From positions 1-64,000 of the forward strand of contig SHZF01000003.1 in NCBI GenBank assembly GCA_009692425.1: a stretch of DNA of 64,000 nucleotides. Direction: 5' to 3'. A model generated the notes under the pieces. That model did no database searches and had not been told where the DNA came from. It saw nothing but the letters and a program-made list of their open reading frames with translations. This document shows positions 12,727-55,244 of the stretch, one piece after another (the first letter of the stretch is position 1; each line of letters starts with the position of its first letter). This stretch comes from Myxococcales bacterium. GTDB lineage: Bacteria; Myxococcota_A; UBA9042. A program made the position numbers and the translations under genes.

Positions 12727-13116
12727 ATGCTGACTGCCGCCCTGTTCGAACTGCGCCGCACCTTCCGCTTCGAAGCCGCTCACCGGTTGCCGCACGTGGC
12801 GCCTGAGCACAAGTGTGCGCGCCTGCACGGCCACAGCTTCGAGGTCGAGGTGGTCGTCCGCGGGGCCCTCGATGCGCGGCTCGGTTGGGTCATGGATTAC
12901 GCGGACCTCAAGGCCGCAGCCGGCCCAATCATTGACGAGTTGGACCACCGCTACCTCAACGAACTCGATGGCCTGACGAACCCGACGTCTGAAGTCGTCT
13001 GTGTCTGGCTCTGGCAGCGCCTCGCGCCACGCCTGACGGGACTGTACGCGCTGACGCTGCGCGAAACCTGCACGACGGCCTGTACCTACTATGGGCCGCG
13101 GGGAGGCGAAGCATGA
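12727..13116 (+). CDS. queD: 6-carboxytetrahydropterin synthase-like protein (QueD/PTPS family)
   Basis: 129 residues, normal for QueD. It shows FRFEAAHRL, KCARLHGHSFEVEV, VMDYADLK, LDHRYLN, NPTSEVV and RETCTTACTYYG, covering the zinc histidines, the catalytic Cys before LHGH and the pterin-binding glutamate. QueD makes 6-carboxy-5,6,7,8-tetrahydropterin in queuosine synthesis; a related pterin role is possible. ATG 12727 is chosen; a GTG at 12718 is also in frame. The next gene starts within its stop codon (ATGA). No other queuosine gene is in the window. Confidence 0.9.
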   Translation: MLTAALFELRRTFRFEAAHRLPHVAPEHKCARLHGHSFEVEVVVRGALDARLGWVMDYADLKAAAGPIIDELDHRYLNELDGLTNPTSEVVCVWLWQRLAPRLTGLYALTLRETCTTACTYYGPRGGEA

Positions 13117-13619
13117 CCGCACCCACCGAACGCTTCGGCATTCGCCTCGACAAGCAGTATTTCAACTTTGGGTCCGCCCACTTTCTCATTTTTTCCGATG
13201 GCACGCGCGAAGAGCTTCACGGCCACAACTGGCAGGCCACGCTCGAACTCGACGGCGCGCTCGATTCCGGGCACGTCGTGGCGGATTTCATCGTCGTCAA
13301 GCCGATATTCAAGGCGTGTTGCGACGAGTTGGACCACCGCACGTTGCTGCCGCTCCACAATCCGCTCCTGCGCGTCGAGACCCGCGACGACGGTGTGCAC
13401 GCCTGGTTTGGCGCGGACCACTGGCTGGTGCCCGCGCGCGATGTGCGACTGCTCGACCTCGCCAACACGTCGAGTGAGTTGCTCGCGCGCTGGCTGTGCG
13501 AGCGCCTTCTCGCTCGCATCGCCGCCGTGCTGCCAGCGCTGCGGATCGAGCGCGTGCTCGTCACCGTGCAGGAGTCGCCGGGGCAGTCGGCGGTGTACGA
13601 GCGCCGGGGCCCTGCGTGA
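13113..13619 (+). CDS. second 6-pyruvoyl-tetrahydropterin-synthase-family protein
   Basis: 168 residues. FNFGSAHFL, EELHGHNWQATLEL, VADFIVVK, LDHRTLLPLHNP and NTSSELLARWL show the same fold as the preceding gene, with zinc-type histidines retained. The Cys that QueD has just before LHGH is absent, and there is an insert after the DHR block. It is therefore a paralogue with probably different chemistry. It overlaps the preceding gene by ATGA and the following one by GTGA, so the three are translationally coupled. Substrate unknown. Confidence 0.8.
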   Translation: MTAPTERFGIRLDKQYFNFGSAHFLIFSDGTREELHGHNWQATLELDGALDSGHVVADFIVVKPIFKACCDELDHRTLLPLHNPLLRVETRDDGVHAWFGADHWLVPARDVRLLDLANTSSELLARWLCERLLARIAAVLPALRIERVLVTVQESPGQSAVYERRGPA

Positions 13620-37961: not shown

Positions 37962-38966
37962 CTACCCGTCCAGCCGCGTCAGCCTCTCCCCGATCGCTTG
38001 GAGCACGGGCGCGAACGCGGCAGGCAAGGCCCGACTCTGCAGGCTGAAGTCGTCGAGGGCCGCCGCCAGGTCCGTCCGCGCAGCTGCCGCCACGTCGCAC
38101 GCCTCCAGGCGCGCCAACCAGTGGCCGATCGTTGCCGCCGGCGGCTTCTCCCCCTGGGCGGCGCGCGTCAACAGACTGCGCAGCGCCGCCGCTTCCGCCG
38201 CCGGCATGCGCTCCAGTGCGATCGCCACCGGCCACGACACCTTGCCCTCGGCGAGATCGGCCCCGCGCAGTCGGCCCTTGGAGCCGACGAGATCGAGCAG
38301 ATCGTCCCGAATCTGGAATGCCAGGCCGAGCGCGCAGGCCGCCGCGTGGGCCTGGGCCGGAGCCGTCCCGTTGACGAGCAGCGCCGCGCCGCCCAGACAG
38401 ACGCCGAAAAGGGGCCCCGTCTTGGCCTCGAACACCGGGCGCAGCATGGCGCGCGTCGGGGCGGTGGCGTCGCGCAGGCCGATGTCGGCCACCTGGCCGG
38501 AGATGGTCTCGACGATCGCTTCGGCCAGGGCGTGGGCCAGCGCGGGGCGCACGGTGCCCTCGATGGGGTGGCTCGCGAGCAAGTGGGCCACCGGACGCAA
38601 CAGCATGAAATCGCCAGCATTGATCGCCTGTGGCACGCCGTGGCGCGTCCACAGCGTCGGCTGGCCGCGGCGCTCACGGTCGCCGTCTTGAATGTCGTCG
38701 TGCACGAGGGTGCCGTTGTGGGCCAGTTCGATGCACGCGCCCAGTTCGAGCGCAGCGTCGAGCGGGCCGCCGGCCGCGGCGACCAGGGCGGGAGGCAGCA
38801 GGCCGCGCAGGCGCTTGCCCCCCGTCGTCAGTTGCGCAGTCGCCATCGTCGCGAGATCGCTTCCGCGCGGCGCTGCGACGCCTGCCCGTGTCGGCGCGCT
38901 GCCGATCGCGTGGAGTCGCGCGTGCAGCGCGGGCATGTGAGGGAGCAGGTGTTCGTCCAGCGTCAT
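37962..38966 (-). CDS. trans-polyprenyl diphosphate synthase
   Basis: 334 residues. GGKRLRGLLPPALV, the first Asp-rich motif LVHDDIQDGDRERRG and the second FQIRDDLLDLVG identify an isoprenyl diphosphate synthase of the FPP/GGPP/long-chain type. It condenses IPP onto allylic diphosphates. Chain length cannot be set by eye. It is the last gene of the mevalonate operon, starting at ATG 38966 within an ATGA overlap, so product of the upstream enzymes can feed it directly. Confidence 0.92.
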   Translation of the reverse strand: MTLDEHLLPHMPALHARLHAIGSAPTRAGVAAPRGSDLATMATAQLTTGGKRLRGLLPPALVAAAGGPLDAALELGACIELAHNGTLVHDDIQDGDRERRGQPTLWTRHGVPQAINAGDFMLLRPVAHLLASHPIEGTVRPALAHALAEAIVETISGQVADIGLRDATAPTRAMLRPVFEAKTGPLFGVCLGGAALLVNGTAPAQAHAAACALGLAFQIRDDLLDLVGSKGRLRGADLAEGKVSWPVAIALERMPAAEAAALRSLLTRAAQGEKPPAATIGHWLARLEACDVAAAARTDLAAALDDFSLQSRALPAAFAPVLQAIGERLTRLDG

Positions 38967-40006
38967 GGCGCATCCAGCCAGACCGTCTGGAGGTCTGGAG
39001 CGGGCCAAGCGACGTCTTCGGGGAGTCGCGCTACGCAGGGAAAGCCGCGCCGCGCCGCTGCCGCCACCAAGGCATCGAGGCGGCCCGGCTCATCCGTCCA
39101 CGCGATCAGGCAGTCGCCGCCACCGGCTCCCGATGTGCGGGCCACGCAGTCGCTCGCGGTCACCAGTGCCGCCAGATCGGTCAGGGCCGGCGCGGCGAGG
39201 TGGGGCGCGGAAAGGACCGCTTCGCCAAACGCCTCCTCGCACGCTGCCACCGCATCGAGGAAAGGTCGTCCGCCTGCAGCCCACACGGCGAGCAGGGCGC
39301 GGGCCGCCGCATCGATGCGGTCGAGCGCTGCAGGGCTGGGGAGCGGACGTTCCAATTGGGCCGCCGTCGCCGCCGGGGTGCCCGACCACAGTGCCGCGCC
39401 GGCCATCCCTGCCGGCCACGGCAACGGAACGGCGACGTCCGGCGTGCGGTGCCACGCGATCGACCCACCGTGCGCGATCGTGCCGACATCGTAGCCGCTG
39501 CCCCGGCCGCCCTGCAGGTTCGCGTGGACGCCGCCCGCGATGCGCGCGAGCCGATGGGCCCGCTCGCCTAGGCCATCAAGGTGTTCCCGTGGGGCGGGGC
39601 CCAGCGCAGCCAGCACGGCGGCGACCGTGACGGCTGCACTCGTGCCGAGGCCGACCTTCGCTGTTCCCGCTTGCGCGAATACGTCGAAGTCCACCGCCCC
39701 TTCGAGACGCGGGCCGCCCGCCTCCTGCCCCGCCGCGAGGCCAGCCGCGGCAAAAGCAATCAAGCCGGTCGCGGGCGGCGCTGGATCATCCCACGCCAGC
39801 CGGGTTTCGCCGCCAAATGCGCGCAAGGTGGCGACCCGCGCTGCGCCGGGCCGCACGCGCACTTCGACGACGCGCCCGACGGCGCAAGCCAGCGCGAGCC
39901 CGTGGGGTCGCAACACGGCATACTCACCGGCGACCATCAGTTTGCCCGGTACCGTCCAGGCCGATCGCTGCGCGGATTGCGATGGGACGGCAGCACGGCG
40001 CGTCAT
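38963..40006 (-). CDS. phosphomevalonate kinase (GHMP family)
   Basis: 347 residues. The N-terminal VPGKLMVAGEYAVLRPHG is typical of ERG8-like phosphomevalonate kinases. AKVGLGTSAAVTVAAV is the GHMP phosphate-binding motif. GGRGSGYDVGTIAHGG and VARTSGAGGGDC complete the pattern. It phosphorylates 5-phosphomevalonate to the diphosphate. Start ATG 40006 and stop both lie in ATGA overlaps with neighbours. Assignment relative to other GHMP kinases is supported by its place between decarboxylase and prenyl synthase. Confidence 0.88.
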   Translation of the reverse strand: MTRRAAVPSQSAQRSAWTVPGKLMVAGEYAVLRPHGLALACAVGRVVEVRVRPGAARVATLRAFGGETRLAWDDPAPPATGLIAFAAAGLAAGQEAGGPRLEGAVDFDVFAQAGTAKVGLGTSAAVTVAAVLAALGPAPREHLDGLGERAHRLARIAGGVHANLQGGRGSGYDVGTIAHGGSIAWHRTPDVAVPLPWPAGMAGAALWSGTPAATAAQLERPLPSPAALDRIDAAARALLAVWAAGGRPFLDAVAACEEAFGEAVLSAPHLAAPALTDLAALVTASDCVARTSGAGGGDCLIAWTDEPGRLDALVAAAARRGFPCVARLPEDVAWPAPDLQTVWLDAP

Positions 40007-40995
40007 GCGCCCGACTCGACCACGCGCGCGCCCGGTCCCACCCGCGTCTCGATGACCTCGTCGATGCCGGCGATCTCGCCCAGCACCTCTGCCACGGCGC
40101 GCACGTCCTGGGCGGTTGCCAGGATCACGACGCTCGCACCGGCGTCGATCGTGAAGCAGCACTCGGTGCCCTCGTGTCGCAACTGCCGCACCGCGTGGAT
40201 GACCGCGACCGTCGCCGGTTGCCAGTAGAGCAGGGGCGGGCGCCCCCACAACATCGTGGCGTGCATCCGCAGGGCATTGCACTCGACGACGTCTGCCAGG
40301 GCGCCGAAGTCGCGCGCCGCGATGGCGTTCCGCGCGGTGGCCACGTCGGCGCGACACGTGGCCGTCCAGGCTTCGAACATCGGCGCGCTCGCGGCGGTCG
40401 ATGCCATGCCTGCCGTCGACGACACCGCCTTGCGCCCGCCCACGTGGGCGACCAGCACGCGCAGCGGCCAGTGCTCTGCGGGGTGCAGGCACTCGGCCAC
40501 GCTGTCCGACCCGTCCGGCGCGCTGCCCGCGTGCCACAAGGCGAATCCGCCGGGCACCGAGCGCGCCGCAGAGCCGGAGCCCAGGCGGGCCAATGCCGAC
40601 AACTCCGCTGGGGAGAGGTCGAGGCCATAGGCCCGCGCCGCCGCGACCGCCAGCGCCGCCATGCCCGAGGCTGACGAAGCGAGGCCGCGCGCCATCGGCA
40701 CCGTGTTCACCGAGCGTACGCCCGCGTGGCCGGTGGCGCCGGCACGCCGCCGCACGGCAGCCAGTACGCGCTCGGCCCGCACCAGGCCCGCTGGATCGAG
40801 TGGCCGGTCATCGACCACCACAATGTCCCGGTCCAGTTGGGCGTCGGGCTGCACGATGGTCAGGCTGCCGAGTTCCTGCAAGGCGACCGACAGCGAAGGA
40901 GCGACCGGCAGGTTGAGCGCTGCATCGCGTTTGCCCCAGTACTTGACCAGCGCGATGTTGATCGGCGCGAACGCCGCCGCGCGCGACGCGGTCAT
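40003..40995 (-). CDS. mvaD: diphosphomevalonate decarboxylase
   Basis: 330 residues. PINIALVKYWGKRD and LNLPVAPSLSVAL at the N-terminus are hallmark MvaD motifs. PMARGLASSASGMAALAVAA is the GHMP P-loop. GSGSAARSVPGGFALW contains the invariant Ser-Arg region. It converts mevalonate diphosphate to isopentenyl diphosphate with loss of CO2. Near the C-terminus CCFTIDAGASVVIL fits the C-terminal GHMP domain with the catalytic Asp region. Overlaps both neighbours by 4 bp. Confidence 0.93.
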   Translation of the reverse strand: MTASRAAAFAPINIALVKYWGKRDAALNLPVAPSLSVALQELGSLTIVQPDAQLDRDIVVVDDRPLDPAGLVRAERVLAAVRRRAGATGHAGVRSVNTVPMARGLASSASGMAALAVAAARAYGLDLSPAELSALARLGSGSAARSVPGGFALWHAGSAPDGSDSVAECLHPAEHWPLRVLVAHVGGRKAVSSTAGMASTAASAPMFEAWTATCRADVATARNAIAARDFGALADVVECNALRMHATMLWGRPPLLYWQPATVAVIHAVRQLRHEGTECCFTIDAGASVVILATAQDVRAVAEVLGEIAGIDEVIETRVGPGARVVESGA

Positions 40996-41966
40996 CGTGG
41001 CTCCTGTGGCGCATTCGCTCCGGGCGCGTCCGGCGCCACGGTGAGCACCCACTGCCCTGCGGTCAGGTTCCTCGTCGCTGCGCGCACCCGTTCGGCGGCG
41101 CCGGCATCGGCGCACAGCGCGAGCAGCATTCCGCCCATGCCCGCGCCGGTCTGCTTGGCGGCACGGGCACCCGAATCGATCGCGGCGTCGAGCACCACGC
41201 GCATCGCGCCATCGACGACGCCCAGCGGCTCCAGGCAGGCGCCCGCGGTCGTCAGCGCCTCGGCGAGGGCATCGACATCTCCGCGCTCGAGCGCAGAGGC
41301 CGCCATGGCCGCCGCCGCCGTCGTCCGGTCGCGCAGGCTCCGAACCGCTTCGGCCCCGAGCCGGCCGCGTGCGGTCTGCGCGGCTTCGATGGCGGTCCGG
41401 GTCGAAGCCGCCACGCCGAGGTCGAGCAGCACCCAGCGCGCCGCCAACAACGCGGGCGTGCAGGCGATCGGCACGCGGTCCAAGATGCCGCCGCCGCGAA
41501 ACAGCACCGCTCCCGTCCCCGCGGCGGCGGCCGGATCCAGCCCAGACGAGCGGCCGTGCACAATGCACTCCACCTCACGTGCGTCGGCCAGCAGGTCGGC
41601 GCCATCCGGAGCCGCGCCGGTCGCGAGTCGGTGTGCAGCGCGCACGGCTGCGACCGCCAGTGCCGCCGACGACCCGAGCCCGCGCCCGAGCGGCACGTTG
41701 GAGCGGATGGCGACCGTAACGTCTGCGTCCACGTCCGCCAAGGTACATGCCTTCGTGAGCATCTTGCGCGTGTCTTCTGCCCACGTGCCGCCCAGGTCGG
41801 TGCCCGCCTCGAACGAAACCGTGAGCGGCCCAGAGCCCCAGCACCCCAGTGTCACGTCTGTGCGGAACCATGGCAGGCCGATCGCCACCGCCGTCGCTCC
41901 GTCCAGCACGTGATGCTCGCCGACGAGGATCGCCTTGCCGTGGCCGTACCCGCTCGCCTCGGTCAT
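40992..41966 (-). CDS. mevalonate kinase
   Basis: 324 residues. GYGHGKAILVGEHHVLDGATAVA is the mevalonate kinase N-terminal motif. NVPLGRGLGSSAALAVA is the phosphate loop. GRSSGLDPAAAAG and KQTGAGMGGMLLAL match the remaining GHMP blocks. It phosphorylates mevalonate to 5-phosphomevalonate. Start ATG 41966 overlaps the fni stop; its own stop overlaps mvaD. Confidence 0.92.
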   Translation of the reverse strand: MTEASGYGHGKAILVGEHHVLDGATAVAIGLPWFRTDVTLGCWGSGPLTVSFEAGTDLGGTWAEDTRKMLTKACTLADVDADVTVAIRSNVPLGRGLGSSAALAVAAVRAAHRLATGAAPDGADLLADAREVECIVHGRSSGLDPAAAAGTGAVLFRGGGILDRVPIACTPALLAARWVLLDLGVAASTRTAIEAAQTARGRLGAEAVRSLRDRTTAAAAMAASALERGDVDALAEALTTAGACLEPLGVVDGAMRVVLDAAIDSGARAAKQTGAGMGGMLLALCADAGAAERVRAATRNLTAGQWVLTVAPDAPGANAPQEPR

Positions 41967-43051
41967 CGCATGCCCACGTCGCGGCCGTCGGGGTGGTGCA
42001 GCAGCACGAGCCCGGCGTCTTCGCGCAACGACACGCGCTGCAACTGCAGCAGGTCCGGCGCCCCGACGAGGAACATGACCGTGCGCAGCGTCTCGACCAC
42101 GCCCTCGATCTCGGTGACGACGGCATCGACGCCGGAGCGCGCCGCGGCCAGAAACGGGTAGGCCATCGCGCACGCATTGGCACCCAAGGCAATGCATTTC
42201 GCGACCTCGAGCCCATCGCGCAGGCCGCCCGAACCGATCACGACCCGCCGCGGAAACGCCTTGCGCGCCAACACGATGCTCTCTGCCGTCGGCGTGCCGA
42301 AGTCTGCCAGGATGCCGCCCGCGATCGAACGCGCCGACCGGTCCGCGTGGCGCAGCGCCTCGATCTGCGCCCACGACGTGCCGCCCACGCCCGCGGTTTC
42401 GACGCCTGCGATGCCGGTCGCCGCGAGCACAGCCAGCGTCTGTTCGCCGAGGCCAGCGCCCACTTCCTTGGCGAGCACCGGCAGGTTGCAGCCGGCGGCA
42501 CACTCGCCGAGCGCGTCGAGCACGCCGCGCCAGTCGCGATCGCCCTCCTTCTGGACGGCCTCTTGCAGCGGGTTCAGGTGCACAAACATCGCGTCGGCCC
42601 CGACTGCGATGCCCAATCGCTCCAGGCCGCGGCCGTCGAGGTGATCGCGCAACTGGATGGCCCCGATGTTGCCGACCACCAGCGTCGTCGGCGCCACGTC
42701 GCGCACCGCAAACGACTCCACCGTCGCGGGCTTGAGGTCCATCATGGGCCGCTGCGACCCCAGGCAGAATCCGACGCCACAGCGCTGCGCCGCCTCGGCC
42801 AGCACCCGGTTGATGTGCGCTGCCTCCGCTGTTCCGCCGGTCATCGCGCCCACCAGCAGGGGTGCTCGCAGTGCGCGGCCCACGAGCGTGCAGCGCGTGT
42901 CGATTTGGTCCAGGTCCAGTTCTGGCAGCGACAGCATCTCGAAGCGCCAGCGGTCGAGCCCGTTGGCACGCCCAGGCCGCTGGGTGTGCGCGCCGTCCAG
43001 CGCCAACTGGAGGTGTTCGGTCTTGCGGTCGAGCAGGGAGTCGGATGCCAT
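41963..43051 (-). CDS. fni: type 2 isopentenyl-diphosphate isomerase (FMN-dependent)
   Basis: 362 residues. RKTEHLQLAL at the N-terminus, LVGAMTGGTAEAAHINRVLAEAAQ, VGFCLGSQRPM, MFVHLNPLQEAVQKEGDRDW and VVIGSGGLRDGLEVAK are characteristic of the TIM-barrel FMN enzyme that interconverts IPP and DMAPP. First gene of the five-gene mevalonate operon. Start ATG 43051 is chosen because the family begins here. The 148 bp to the divergent lipoprotein gene should hold both promoters, but I cannot pick them out. Confidence 0.93.
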   Translation of the reverse strand: MASDSLLDRKTEHLQLALDGAHTQRPGRANGLDRWRFEMLSLPELDLDQIDTRCTLVGRALRAPLLVGAMTGGTAEAAHINRVLAEAAQRCGVGFCLGSQRPMMDLKPATVESFAVRDVAPTTLVVGNIGAIQLRDHLDGRGLERLGIAVGADAMFVHLNPLQEAVQKEGDRDWRGVLDALGECAAGCNLPVLAKEVGAGLGEQTLAVLAATGIAGVETAGVGGTSWAQIEALRHADRSARSIAGGILADFGTPTAESIVLARKAFPRRVVIGSGGLRDGLEVAKCIALGANACAMAYPFLAAARSGVDAVVTEIEGVVETLRTVMFLVGAPDLLQLQRVSLREDAGLVLLHHPDGRDVGMR

Positions 43052-53516: not shown

Positions 53517-53709
53517 GGCTTACCTCGTCAAGCGAGCGGCAGCGTGCCCAGCGGAGCGGCGAGCGTCAATGCCGGGCGCGCCCTAGAATCGCGAAGCGTG
53601 TTGAGAGGCCGCGTCTGGAGCCGTGTTGCAGGGTTGCGTCCAACGCCCCGCCACCGTAGCGTCCCCCTGCCCGGCCATCCCACCCGTCGGCCCCAAGGTG
53701 CCCGCCCGC

Positions 53710-54534
53710 GTGAACGCCATCGATGCCATCGGTGCCAAGCTCATCGGCTTCGTCCGCTACCTGTGGTTCGTGCTCGCGTTCCTCTACCTGGCCATCAAGA
53801 TGCTGTGGGTCGGCCGCAGCTTTGGCCAACGCGACCTGTTTCGCCAAGTGCTGCTGCAGGTGTACTTCACCGCGGTCGAAGCGACCGGCCCGGTCGTCGT
53901 GTTGGCCCTGGGCGTCGGCGTGATCGCGATCGTGCAAGGCGTCGGCGGCCTCGGCTCGCTGTCGGGTGCAGACAGCCTCGGCCGCATGGTGACCGTCGTC
54001 GTGCTGCGCGAGGTGGCGCCGCTTCTCACGGGCGCCATCGTGATTGTGCGCTCGGTCACCGCGATCGCGGCCGAACTCGGCATGATGCGAGTGCAGCGCG
54101 AGATCGAGGCAATGGAGGTGATGGGCATCCCGCCGGTGCGACAACTCGTCACCCCGCGGATCATCGGCGGCCTGCTCTCGGTGTTCGGGCTCAGCGTGCT
54201 GTTCAGCGCTGTGGCGCTGGTCGGCGGCTTTGCCATCGCGCAGTTGCTCGTCACGCTGCCGGCCGAGGTGTTCTTCGGCGCAGTGCTGGCGGCGACGGCG
54301 CCTTCAGACCTCGTCGCGTTCCTCGTCAAGGTGACCGTCGGCGGGGTTGGGCTCGTGCTGATCGGCTGCTACCACGGGTTCGACGTGGTCGAGTCTCCCA
54401 CGGAGGTGCCCGTCGCGGTGTCGCGGGCGGCGCTGAACAGCCTCATCTTCCTCATCGCGCTGCACGGCACGGTGTCGCTCTTGACGCTGGTGCCGCAAGG
54501 CGCGCTGGGCCTGCTGTTGGGTGGACTCGGATGA
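53710..54534 (+). CDS. mlaE: MlaE-family lipid ABC transporter permease
   Basis: 274 residues from GTG 53710; GTG 53698 is also in frame. Five or six hydrophobic segments carry MlaE landmarks: FYFTAVEATGPV-type first block (VYFTAVEATGPV), REVAPLLTGAIVIVRSVTAIAAELGMMRVQREIEAMEVMGI and PRIIGGLLSVF. It is the membrane core of the system that moves phospholipids across the envelope of diderm bacteria. First of three genes linked by ATGA overlaps with an MlaF-like and an MlaD-like gene. Confidence 0.92.
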   Translation: MNAIDAIGAKLIGFVRYLWFVLAFLYLAIKMLWVGRSFGQRDLFRQVLLQVYFTAVEATGPVVVLALGVGVIAIVQGVGGLGSLSGADSLGRMVTVVVLREVAPLLTGAIVIVRSVTAIAAELGMMRVQREIEAMEVMGIPPVRQLVTPRIIGGLLSVFGLSVLFSAVALVGGFAIAQLLVTLPAEVFFGAVLAATAPSDLVAFLVKVTVGGVGLVLIGCYHGFDVVESPTEVPVAVSRAALNSLIFLIALHGTVSLLTLVPQGALGLLLGGLG

Positions 54535-55244
54535 GCGAGGCGGTGCTCAGCCTGCCGGCGGGCCTCGAGGTCGACGTGCGTGGCCAGCGGGCCGTCGTGC
54601 CGCCGTTCGAGGCCGAGGTGGGGCGGTGGGTCGCGCTGGCACCGGCTGCGGGTGTCGCCGCCGGCGCCGCGGCCATCGCGATCGCGCGCACCCTCGGCAC
54701 GCTCACGCCTCCGCTGGCCGGCACGCTGCGTTTGTTGGGGGTCGAGACGCGGCGCCTCGAATACGTCGACCTGCTGCGGTTGCGGGCGTGCATCGGCTAC
54801 GTGCATGGCACCGGTGGCCTGCTGTCGAACCGCAGCGTGGCCGACAACATCGCCTTGCCGCTGTCGATCCATGCCCGCCTGGCACTGGCTGACGAACAGG
54901 CCCGCGTCACGGCGGCGCTGCGCACGTTTGGCCTGGAGACCGCCGCGCGCCAGCGCCCCCACGAACTCGACGGCGTCCTGCGCTTTGCGACCCTCGCTGC
55001 ACGCGCGACCGTGCTGGGTCCGGCGTGGGTCGTGGTCGAGGGCCTCGGTGATTTCGACCGCGCGGCCGCTGGTTCGCAGACCTGGCGCGCGCTGCTGGCC
55101 CGCTCCGCCGCGTTCGACGGCAGCGGCGCCGTGTGCCTGGGGCGCGCCGACGCTCCGTTCGAGGCCTGGCTGATCGAGCAAGGGGGCCACGTCGTGCGGT
55201 ACAGCCTCGCGACGCCGGCCGGGGAGGAGGCCGCACAACCATGA
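54531..55244 (+). CDS. MlaF-like ABC ATPase homologue lacking catalytic motifs
   Basis: 237 residues between mlaE and mlaD, where MlaF is expected. The ABC fold is recognisable (GTLRLLGVETRRLEY, LLSNRSVADNIALPLSIHARL). Key motifs have changed. Walker A is PAAGVAAGA (residues 39-47), with no Lys or Ser/Thr. The Q-loop region reads IGYVHGTG. The signature LSGG is LDGV (146-149). Walker B DE is EG in VVVEGLGDFD (168-171). ATP hydrolysis therefore looks impossible. ATGA overlaps at both ends show it is made with its neighbours and not disrupted. Known from family: MlaF powers MlaE. Inference: pseudo-ATPase or scaffold. Confidence 0.82.
   Translation: MSEAVLSLPAGLEVDVRGQRAVVPPFEAEVGRWVALAPAAGVAAGAAAIAIARTLGTLTPPLAGTLRLLGVETRRLEYVDLLRLRACIGYVHGTGGLLSNRSVADNIALPLSIHARLALADEQARVTAALRTFGLETAARQRPHELDGVLRFATLAARATVLGPAWVVVEGLGDFDRAAAGSQTWRALLARSAAFDGSGAVCLGRADAPFEAWLIEQGGHVVRYSLATPAGEEAAQP

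Follow-up and report, generated by a model that had tools for sequence, protein, structure and literature searches.

In a genome of the Myxococcota, we found an operon of the Mla type, a kind of lipid transport system between the two membranes of the cell, in which mlaE and mlaD flank a gene for an MlaF-position protein, here called psi-MlaF, that has lost all of its ATP motifs. The protein is conserved, evolves under purifying selection, and co-occurs with one clade of MlaE, while its fold is predicted to be that of an NBD. These features suggest a Mla-type lipid carrier that has dispensed with its motor. We infer that psi-MlaF assembles with the MlaE encoded beside it, that no other ATPase replaces it, and that the resulting complex moves lipids passively.

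The window that we analyzed comprises 64,000 nt of a Myxococcales bacterium contig (SHZF01000003.1 of assembly GCA_009692425.1; positions 1 to 64,000, forward strand). Features of the triad are collected in Table 1. The longest open reading frame of mlaE begins at a GTG at 53623; alignment with relatives favors a second GTG at 53710. Its product matched the Pfam family MlaE at 6.5e-48 (163.6 bits versus a cutoff of 22.5), and the mlaD product matched Pfam MlaD at 2.5e-10 (40.9 bits versus a cutoff of 25.1) and NCBIfam Mtu_fam_mce at 1e-9. With both products above the Pfam cutoffs and ATGA overlaps at both junctions, the original prediction that mlaE and mlaD look intact and that all three genes are overlap-coupled was upheld. 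The reading frame between them scored as coding by codon usage. The MlaD protein is of the long type, with a transmembrane helix at residues 7 to 37 in the AlphaFold model, an MCE domain at approximately 40 to 135, and then some 235 residues that are helical at low confidence. Its length and helix content would fit a trans-envelope needle, but pLDDT falls below 50 at residues 139 to 360, and we make no further claim. Long MlaD proteins are not special to this operon, as the other two MlaD proteins of the host have 554 and 355 aa. Beyond mlaE, psi-mlaF, and mlaD, no further gene overlapped the triads in the gene calls at the window and at the loci of relatives. MlaC had two matches elsewhere in the host genome, on contigs C79 and C39. 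Away from the triad, the window carries two overlapping tandem genes of the 6-pyruvoyl tetrahydropterin synthase family (12727-13116 and 13113-13619; Pfam 2.4e-34 and 1.3e-18). On its minus strand (37962-43051) is a cluster encoding a polyprenyl synthetase, GHMP kinases, a diphosphomevalonate decarboxylase, and an FMN-dependent dehydrogenase-type protein, which is probably a mevalonate pathway operon.

Table 1. Coordinates of the triad and its features within the window
Feature	Position	Strand	Basis or remark
mlaE, lipid ABC permease	53710..54534	+	Pfam MlaE PF02405; start by alignment; conserved coupling-helix segment
ATGA stop/start overlap, mlaE / psi-mlaF	54531..54534	+	-4 offset also in most relatives
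psi-mlaF, MlaF-position protein, ABC ATPase fold (predicted), ATP motifs lost	54531..55244	+	ATG start; 237 aa
Most conserved 26-residue stretch, psi-MlaF residues 89-114 (GYVHGTGGLLSNRSVADNIALPLSIH)	54795..54872	+	Entropy scan
ATGA stop/start overlap, psi-mlaF / mlaD	55241..55244	+	Window sequence
mlaD / MCE protein, 380 aa	55241..56383	+	Pfam MlaD; NCBIfam Mtu_fam_mce; AlphaFold model

To read the ATP site, we used MAFFT to align psi-MlaF with three MlaF-like ATPases that are intact in the host genome. Relative to these host proteins, Walker A has changed from GGSGSGKS to APAAGVAAGAAAI, the Q-loop from LFQNAAL to VHGTGGL with loss of its Gln, the signature from LSGGM to LDGVL, Walker B from VYDEP to VVVEGL with the acidic pair reduced to a single Glu, and the H-loop from SHD to LGRAD with loss of its His. 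The whole protein contains no lysine. The alterations of the Walker A Lys and the LSGG signature were therefore as originally predicted, and the list of altered motifs stood as far as it went but was incomplete, since the Q-loop and H-loop are lost as well. For the Walker B and catalytic Glu, the predicted change holds for the acidic pair, which is lost under either alignment, but the status of the catalytic Glu depends on the alignment. Specifically, HMMER matches E170 of psi-MlaF to the FtsE catalytic Glu and deletes the Walker B Asp, while MAFFT places it at the Walker B Asp. This residue is invariant in all 21 members of the psi-MlaF alignment (A3) and forms a conserved patch with G173. 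A D-loop-like G-[DN]-[FW] motif is conserved as well.

The motifs have not simply been displaced, as a search of psi-mlaF in all six frames found neither GxxGxGK[ST] nor LSGG[QRMEK]. Nor does a sequencing error account for their loss, because the same losses recur across genomes of two families. All ATP motifs are lost in 21/21 members of A3; Walker A is absent from every one, the signature is replaced at its place in all psi-MlaF relatives, and a His near the H-loop place was seen among them only at locus L035 (VLSHR). That psi-MlaF is a dead ATPase, unable to act as a normal one, is well supported, and from sequence, the system of MlaE, psi-MlaF, and MlaD is predicted to make no use of ATP.

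Despite this decay, the protein was described in the original prediction as an otherwise collinear ABC protein, and its predicted NBD fold and its sequence similarity to ABC ATPases agree with that description. No Pfam family matched psi-MlaF at E ≤ 0.001; ABC_tran matched 15 of the 21 members of A3, the window protein not among them. The NCBIfam matches to FtsE (1.8e-12) and MlaF (2.2e-9) lay far under the curated cutoffs, and we therefore rejected a named family for the protein. In the PDB, a profile built from ten relatives matched chains of MetN, FtsE, and MlaF with E values between 1e-19 and 1e-13. The AlphaFold model of psi-MlaF (pLDDT 92.5) matched 6xgz_E in Foldseek (E 1.3e-13) and, in VIA structure matching, 7ch7_C (Z 23.7; 2.3 Å over 215) and 6xbd_I (Z 23.5; 2.5 Å over 216). 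LolD scored within 1 Z of MlaF, and FtsE and MetN nearly so, which means that the fold identifies an NBD but not MlaF specifically.

Homologs of psi-MlaF were found in 12 of the 22 genomes of the window's family, two of these being fragments only, and in 12 of 14 genomes, covering all ten genera, of a second Myxococcota order, that of genome G160. A sample of the phylum yielded psi-MlaF in 15/377 genomes, all from the same two families. The named genomes are mostly labeled "uncultured Myxococcales bacterium" or "Deltaproteobacteria bacterium." The searches had little reach beyond Myxococcota: the scan of genome contigs used two short peptide patterns, which missed the f45 type described below, and the wide genome searches scored few candidates per genome (seven in the phylum sample). 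In a class-level search, psi-MlaF scores ended at 8e-95 and the next matches began at 8e-27. Eighteen loci from this search were examined (L103 to L120), of which 15 look ordinary and three (L104, L106, and L120) carry a degenerate gene at the mlaF position (F gene). Nine named relatives (L034 to L042) have mlaE, psi-mlaF, and mlaD together, with other neighbors that do not match those of the triad in the window. At one of them, a radical SAM gene on the opposite strand (L041:3727-5391; Pfam 3.1e-14) lies between mlaE and psi-mlaF, so that the coupling of these two genes is broken there. Every genome with a window-type MlaE (14/14 at E ≤ 1e-35, among the 377) also carried psi-MlaF; the fifteenth psi-MlaF genome, G002, has no more than a fragment, located where a contig stops. 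This conservation makes a family of what would otherwise be an oddity.

The family is under purifying selection. By the NG86 method, four pairs at a dS under 1 gave omega values for psi-MlaF of 0.20, 0.07, 0.34, and 0.25, and two further pairs, at dS of 1.5 and 1.1, gave 0.18 and 0.23. Two pairs that include the window gave 0.36 and 0.52 at dS of 1.7 and 1.0, values that are near saturation. Together with the distribution, the omega values led us to reject a recent pseudogene. MlaE was strongly constrained in the eight pairs (omega 0.05 to 0.17), with psi-MlaF evolving faster than MlaE in 8/8. Within psi-MlaF, residues 89 to 114 had an entropy of 0.79 bits versus a mean of 1.78, and none of 2,000 shuffles was as low. 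The former Walker A loop was more variable than average (2.17 versus the same mean), as was the tail (2.64). The conserved stretch starts at the Q-loop position and covers what, by analogy with ABC structures, is the expected groove for the MlaE coupling helix. In the coupling-helix segment of MlaE, E121, G123, M125, E130, A133, and G138 (numbered by the first row of the MlaE profile alignment A6) were invariant in 14 sequences, partly decayed systems included.

Loss of ATP motifs extends, in graded form, to related loci. MlaE profile searches of the 377 phylum genomes and of 317 genomes in the class of G160 returned 27 at E ≤ 1e-48 and 58 at E ≤ 1e-42, respectively. We surveyed 74 loci, made up of the 58 genomes from the class search and 16 of the window's family. 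A6 had been seeded with L104, L106, and L120 from the psi-MlaF search, and the survey therefore leans toward degenerate neighbors. A same-strand F gene adjoined mlaE at 68 of the 74 loci. The other six were L166, L181, L185, L187, L188, and L204; an opposite-strand F-like gene was present at L181 and L188, none at L166 and L204, and L185 had no gene calls. Each F gene was scored for five features, namely the Walker A Lys, the Ser and last Gly of the signature, the Walker B Asp, the catalytic Glu, and the H-loop His. Only one of the 68 (L193, family f59) was canonical, with some or all of the canonical residues missing from the other 67. None of the five features remained in 30 F genes: 11 from f1 (one cut short), 12 from f45, and 7 from f39, a tally in which L043 ends at a contig edge and has its unread Walker B and His states entered as lost. 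Another 22, from f17, combine GKS and DDP with an S-x-G signature and lack the H-loop His, and 15 fell in between. The f17 genes may keep some activity, as may three F genes in which the signature is missing but Walker A, DE, and His are present, and with motifs partly intact in some F genes we rejected counting the F at all 74 loci as dead. The f17 loci are mlaE-F pairs (L136, L137, L140, L141, L162 to L175, L180, L182 to L184, L191, and L192). There was no adjacent MlaD at the eight of these that we inspected, nor at the inspected f21 loci. Five f1 genomes without psi-MlaF (G018 to G021 and G011) carry instead an MlaE from the wider clade, accompanied by an F that is partly decayed.

Phylogenies of both proteins had many long branches, which makes their deep joins unsure. 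In the MlaE tree (IQ-TREE, 71 rows), a branch with 100/100 support separated the 66 rows with a noncanonical F from five with an ordinary F. Fully dead rows from f1 and f45, 22 in all, grouped together with 100/100 support and were nested with neighbors whose F is partly decayed (L100, a full-loss f45 member, was left out for its short MlaE), while the seven dead f39 rows formed a separate clade (100/99). In the F tree, 13 ordinary F proteins formed a clade (99/96) with all degenerate F outside it. A reading that we hold tentatively, at just short of an even chance, is that a Myxococcota Mla clade loses its ATPase stepwise and has done so completely in at least two lineages (f1 with f45, and f39), becoming an ATP-independent conduit with a dead-NBD clamp whose intermediates are still living.

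For the window operon itself, we lean slightly toward a complex of MlaE, psi-MlaF, and MlaD with the architecture of MlaFED. In such a complex, psi-MlaF would retain the NBD fold and the surface that grips the MlaE coupling helix but would neither bind nor hydrolyze ATP; its role would instead be structural, that of a fixed clamp holding the MlaE dimer. As a conduit or facilitator, the whole would let lipids pass between the inner membrane and the MCE tunnel in the periplasm without ATP, and lipid gradients or partner proteins would set the direction of movement. Supporting precedents are the transfer from MlaD to MlaC reported without ATP hydrolysis (PMC10212509) and a D-loop mutant of TAP that became a gradient-driven facilitator (PMC7756269). 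Other evidence points the opposite way. The K47A and E170Q variants of Escherichia coli MlaF failed to complement (PMC7367683), which suggests that an ordinary Mla complex cannot do its job without the ATPase. The C-terminal extension of E. coli MlaF is needed for assembly and for staying on MlaE (PMC7367683); in the shorter psi-MlaF (237 aa) this extension seems to be missing and the tail is variable, so that assembly with MlaE is not assured. The faster evolution of psi-MlaF relative to MlaE is also what relaxed constraint predicts, and a pure clamp does not necessarily explain the conserved E170 and G-[DN]-[FW].

The original prediction left a choice between passive flow and a second ATPase, and the genome search that it proposed did recover three MlaF-like ATPases with Walker A besides psi-MlaF. 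These are located on contigs C37, C94, and C105, and they are the ones found adjoining MlaE or MlaD among 47 ABC_tran matches in the host. MlaE is encoded on four contigs (C13, C28, C64, and C105) and MlaD on three (C13, C37, and C94). The ordinary Mla genes are split into F-D pairs on C94 and C37, lone mlaE genes on C64 and C28, and an overlapping F-E pair without mlaD on C105. In relative L117, the MlaE of C64 and the F of C94 have homologs that lie side by side; the C28 MlaE is paired with the C37 F by elimination only. With three ordinary MlaF proteins matched by three ordinary MlaE proteins, no MlaF is visibly spare. We accordingly rejected a spare host ATPase for the window MlaE, noting that one pairing is by elimination. 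Two of these otherwise ordinary proteins each deviate at one motif, the C37 MlaF with an IGDG signature (L029:4682-5425) and the C105 MlaF with an Asp-Asp Walker B (L032:4445-5293), so that a single deviation proves nothing.

It is unlikely that a canonical MlaF from elsewhere powers the window MlaE, whether by replacing psi-MlaF part-time or in a mixed pair with it. In mycobacteria, several Mce systems share a single ATPase, MceG, and because the host's Walker A-bearing MlaF-like ATPases and other mla genes are scattered over several contigs, assembly in trans probably happens there. However, psi-MlaF brings neither Walker A nor signature to a mixed pair, which would be left without a complete composite site; with one coupling helix per MlaE, a psi-MlaF dimer would leave an ATPase no seat; the host's ordinary MlaF proteins are matched as described above; and psi-MlaF is kept by every full-length relative. 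The choice posed was the right one, and the genome accounting disfavors its trans-ATPase branch, making passive flow the better-supported branch at the level of sequence.

A rather unlikely role for psi-MlaF is that of a regulator or adaptor that holds MlaE shut or docks a cytoplasmic protein, the triad then not being a lipid transporter. This would suit a protein that evolves fast over much of its length, tail included, yet is conserved along one stretch where it is expected to face MlaE, as well as the conserved E170/G173 patch, but the strong constraint on MlaE is what would be expected if the membrane path does the work. The complex might also be energized by other means, such as a proton gradient or an unknown partner, in analogy with SbmA, which is proton driven and related to ABC transmembrane domains (PMC13316013). 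We consider this quite improbable: it has precedent in its favor, but no partner gene was identified, as the neighbors beyond the triad in the nine named relatives do not match those of the triad in the window. Finally, the assembly is fragmented (137 contigs), but a sequencing error, pseudogene, or wrong frame has a negligible probability given that the gene recurs in 24 genomes from two families, with open frames, coding codon usage, and purifying selection.

Should the passive conduit be correct, natural evolution would have converted an ABC transporter into a facilitator, and living relatives would still show the intermediate stages. The role of ATP in driving lipids through MCE systems is a matter of dispute, as is the direction of that movement; a review reports both ATP-independent transfer from MlaD to MlaC and ATP-dependent retrograde transport (PMC10212509). 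A natural MlaE-MlaD system with a dead ATPase, together with its intermediate relatives, would separate the role of the membrane path from the contribution of ATP. The parts of the system are known, but in the open-access papers searched we found no description of their pairing with a dead NBD retained across lineages, of a dead MlaF, or of a psi-MlaF family. To our knowledge, it would also be unusual for the sole NBD encoded with an ABC transporter to be dead lineage-wide and yet kept by selection.

SbmA-type proteins, as far as we know, have no NBD, whereas the window triad retains an NBD-shaped subunit. What the SbmA/SLiPT peptide transporters share with our proposal is an ABC-type membrane part that works without ATP (PMC13316013). 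The degenerate sites of the heterodimeric ABC exporters TAP, TM287/288, and Pdr5 show decay of the same residues (the signature, the catalytic Glu to Asp, and the H-loop) with conservation kept (PMC7756269). In those exporters, however, one of the two sites is canonical and hydrolyzes ATP (PMC7756269), while the only F of the window triad has no intact half-site. MlaFEDB of E. coli, Pseudomonas aeruginosa, and Acinetobacter baumannii (PDB 6xbd, 7ch7, 7cha, and 7d06) is likewise encoded by an operon with mlaE, an MCE gene, and a gene for an NBD-fold protein. Relative to it, psi-MlaF has lost all ATP motifs and has a shorter C terminus (237 versus 269 aa), no MlaB-like gene was seen in the window triad, and the window MlaD is twice as long. 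A likeness in layout is seen in MlaEFD of Veillonella parvula, a three-gene E-F-D set with overlapping F and D genes (PMC10665443), described in a report that makes no mention of "Myxococc" or "Deltaproteobacteria." Its long MlaD has been proposed as a trans-envelope bridge (PMC10665443), and the window MlaD is also long; what sets the window triad apart from the V. parvula system is that its ATPase is dead.
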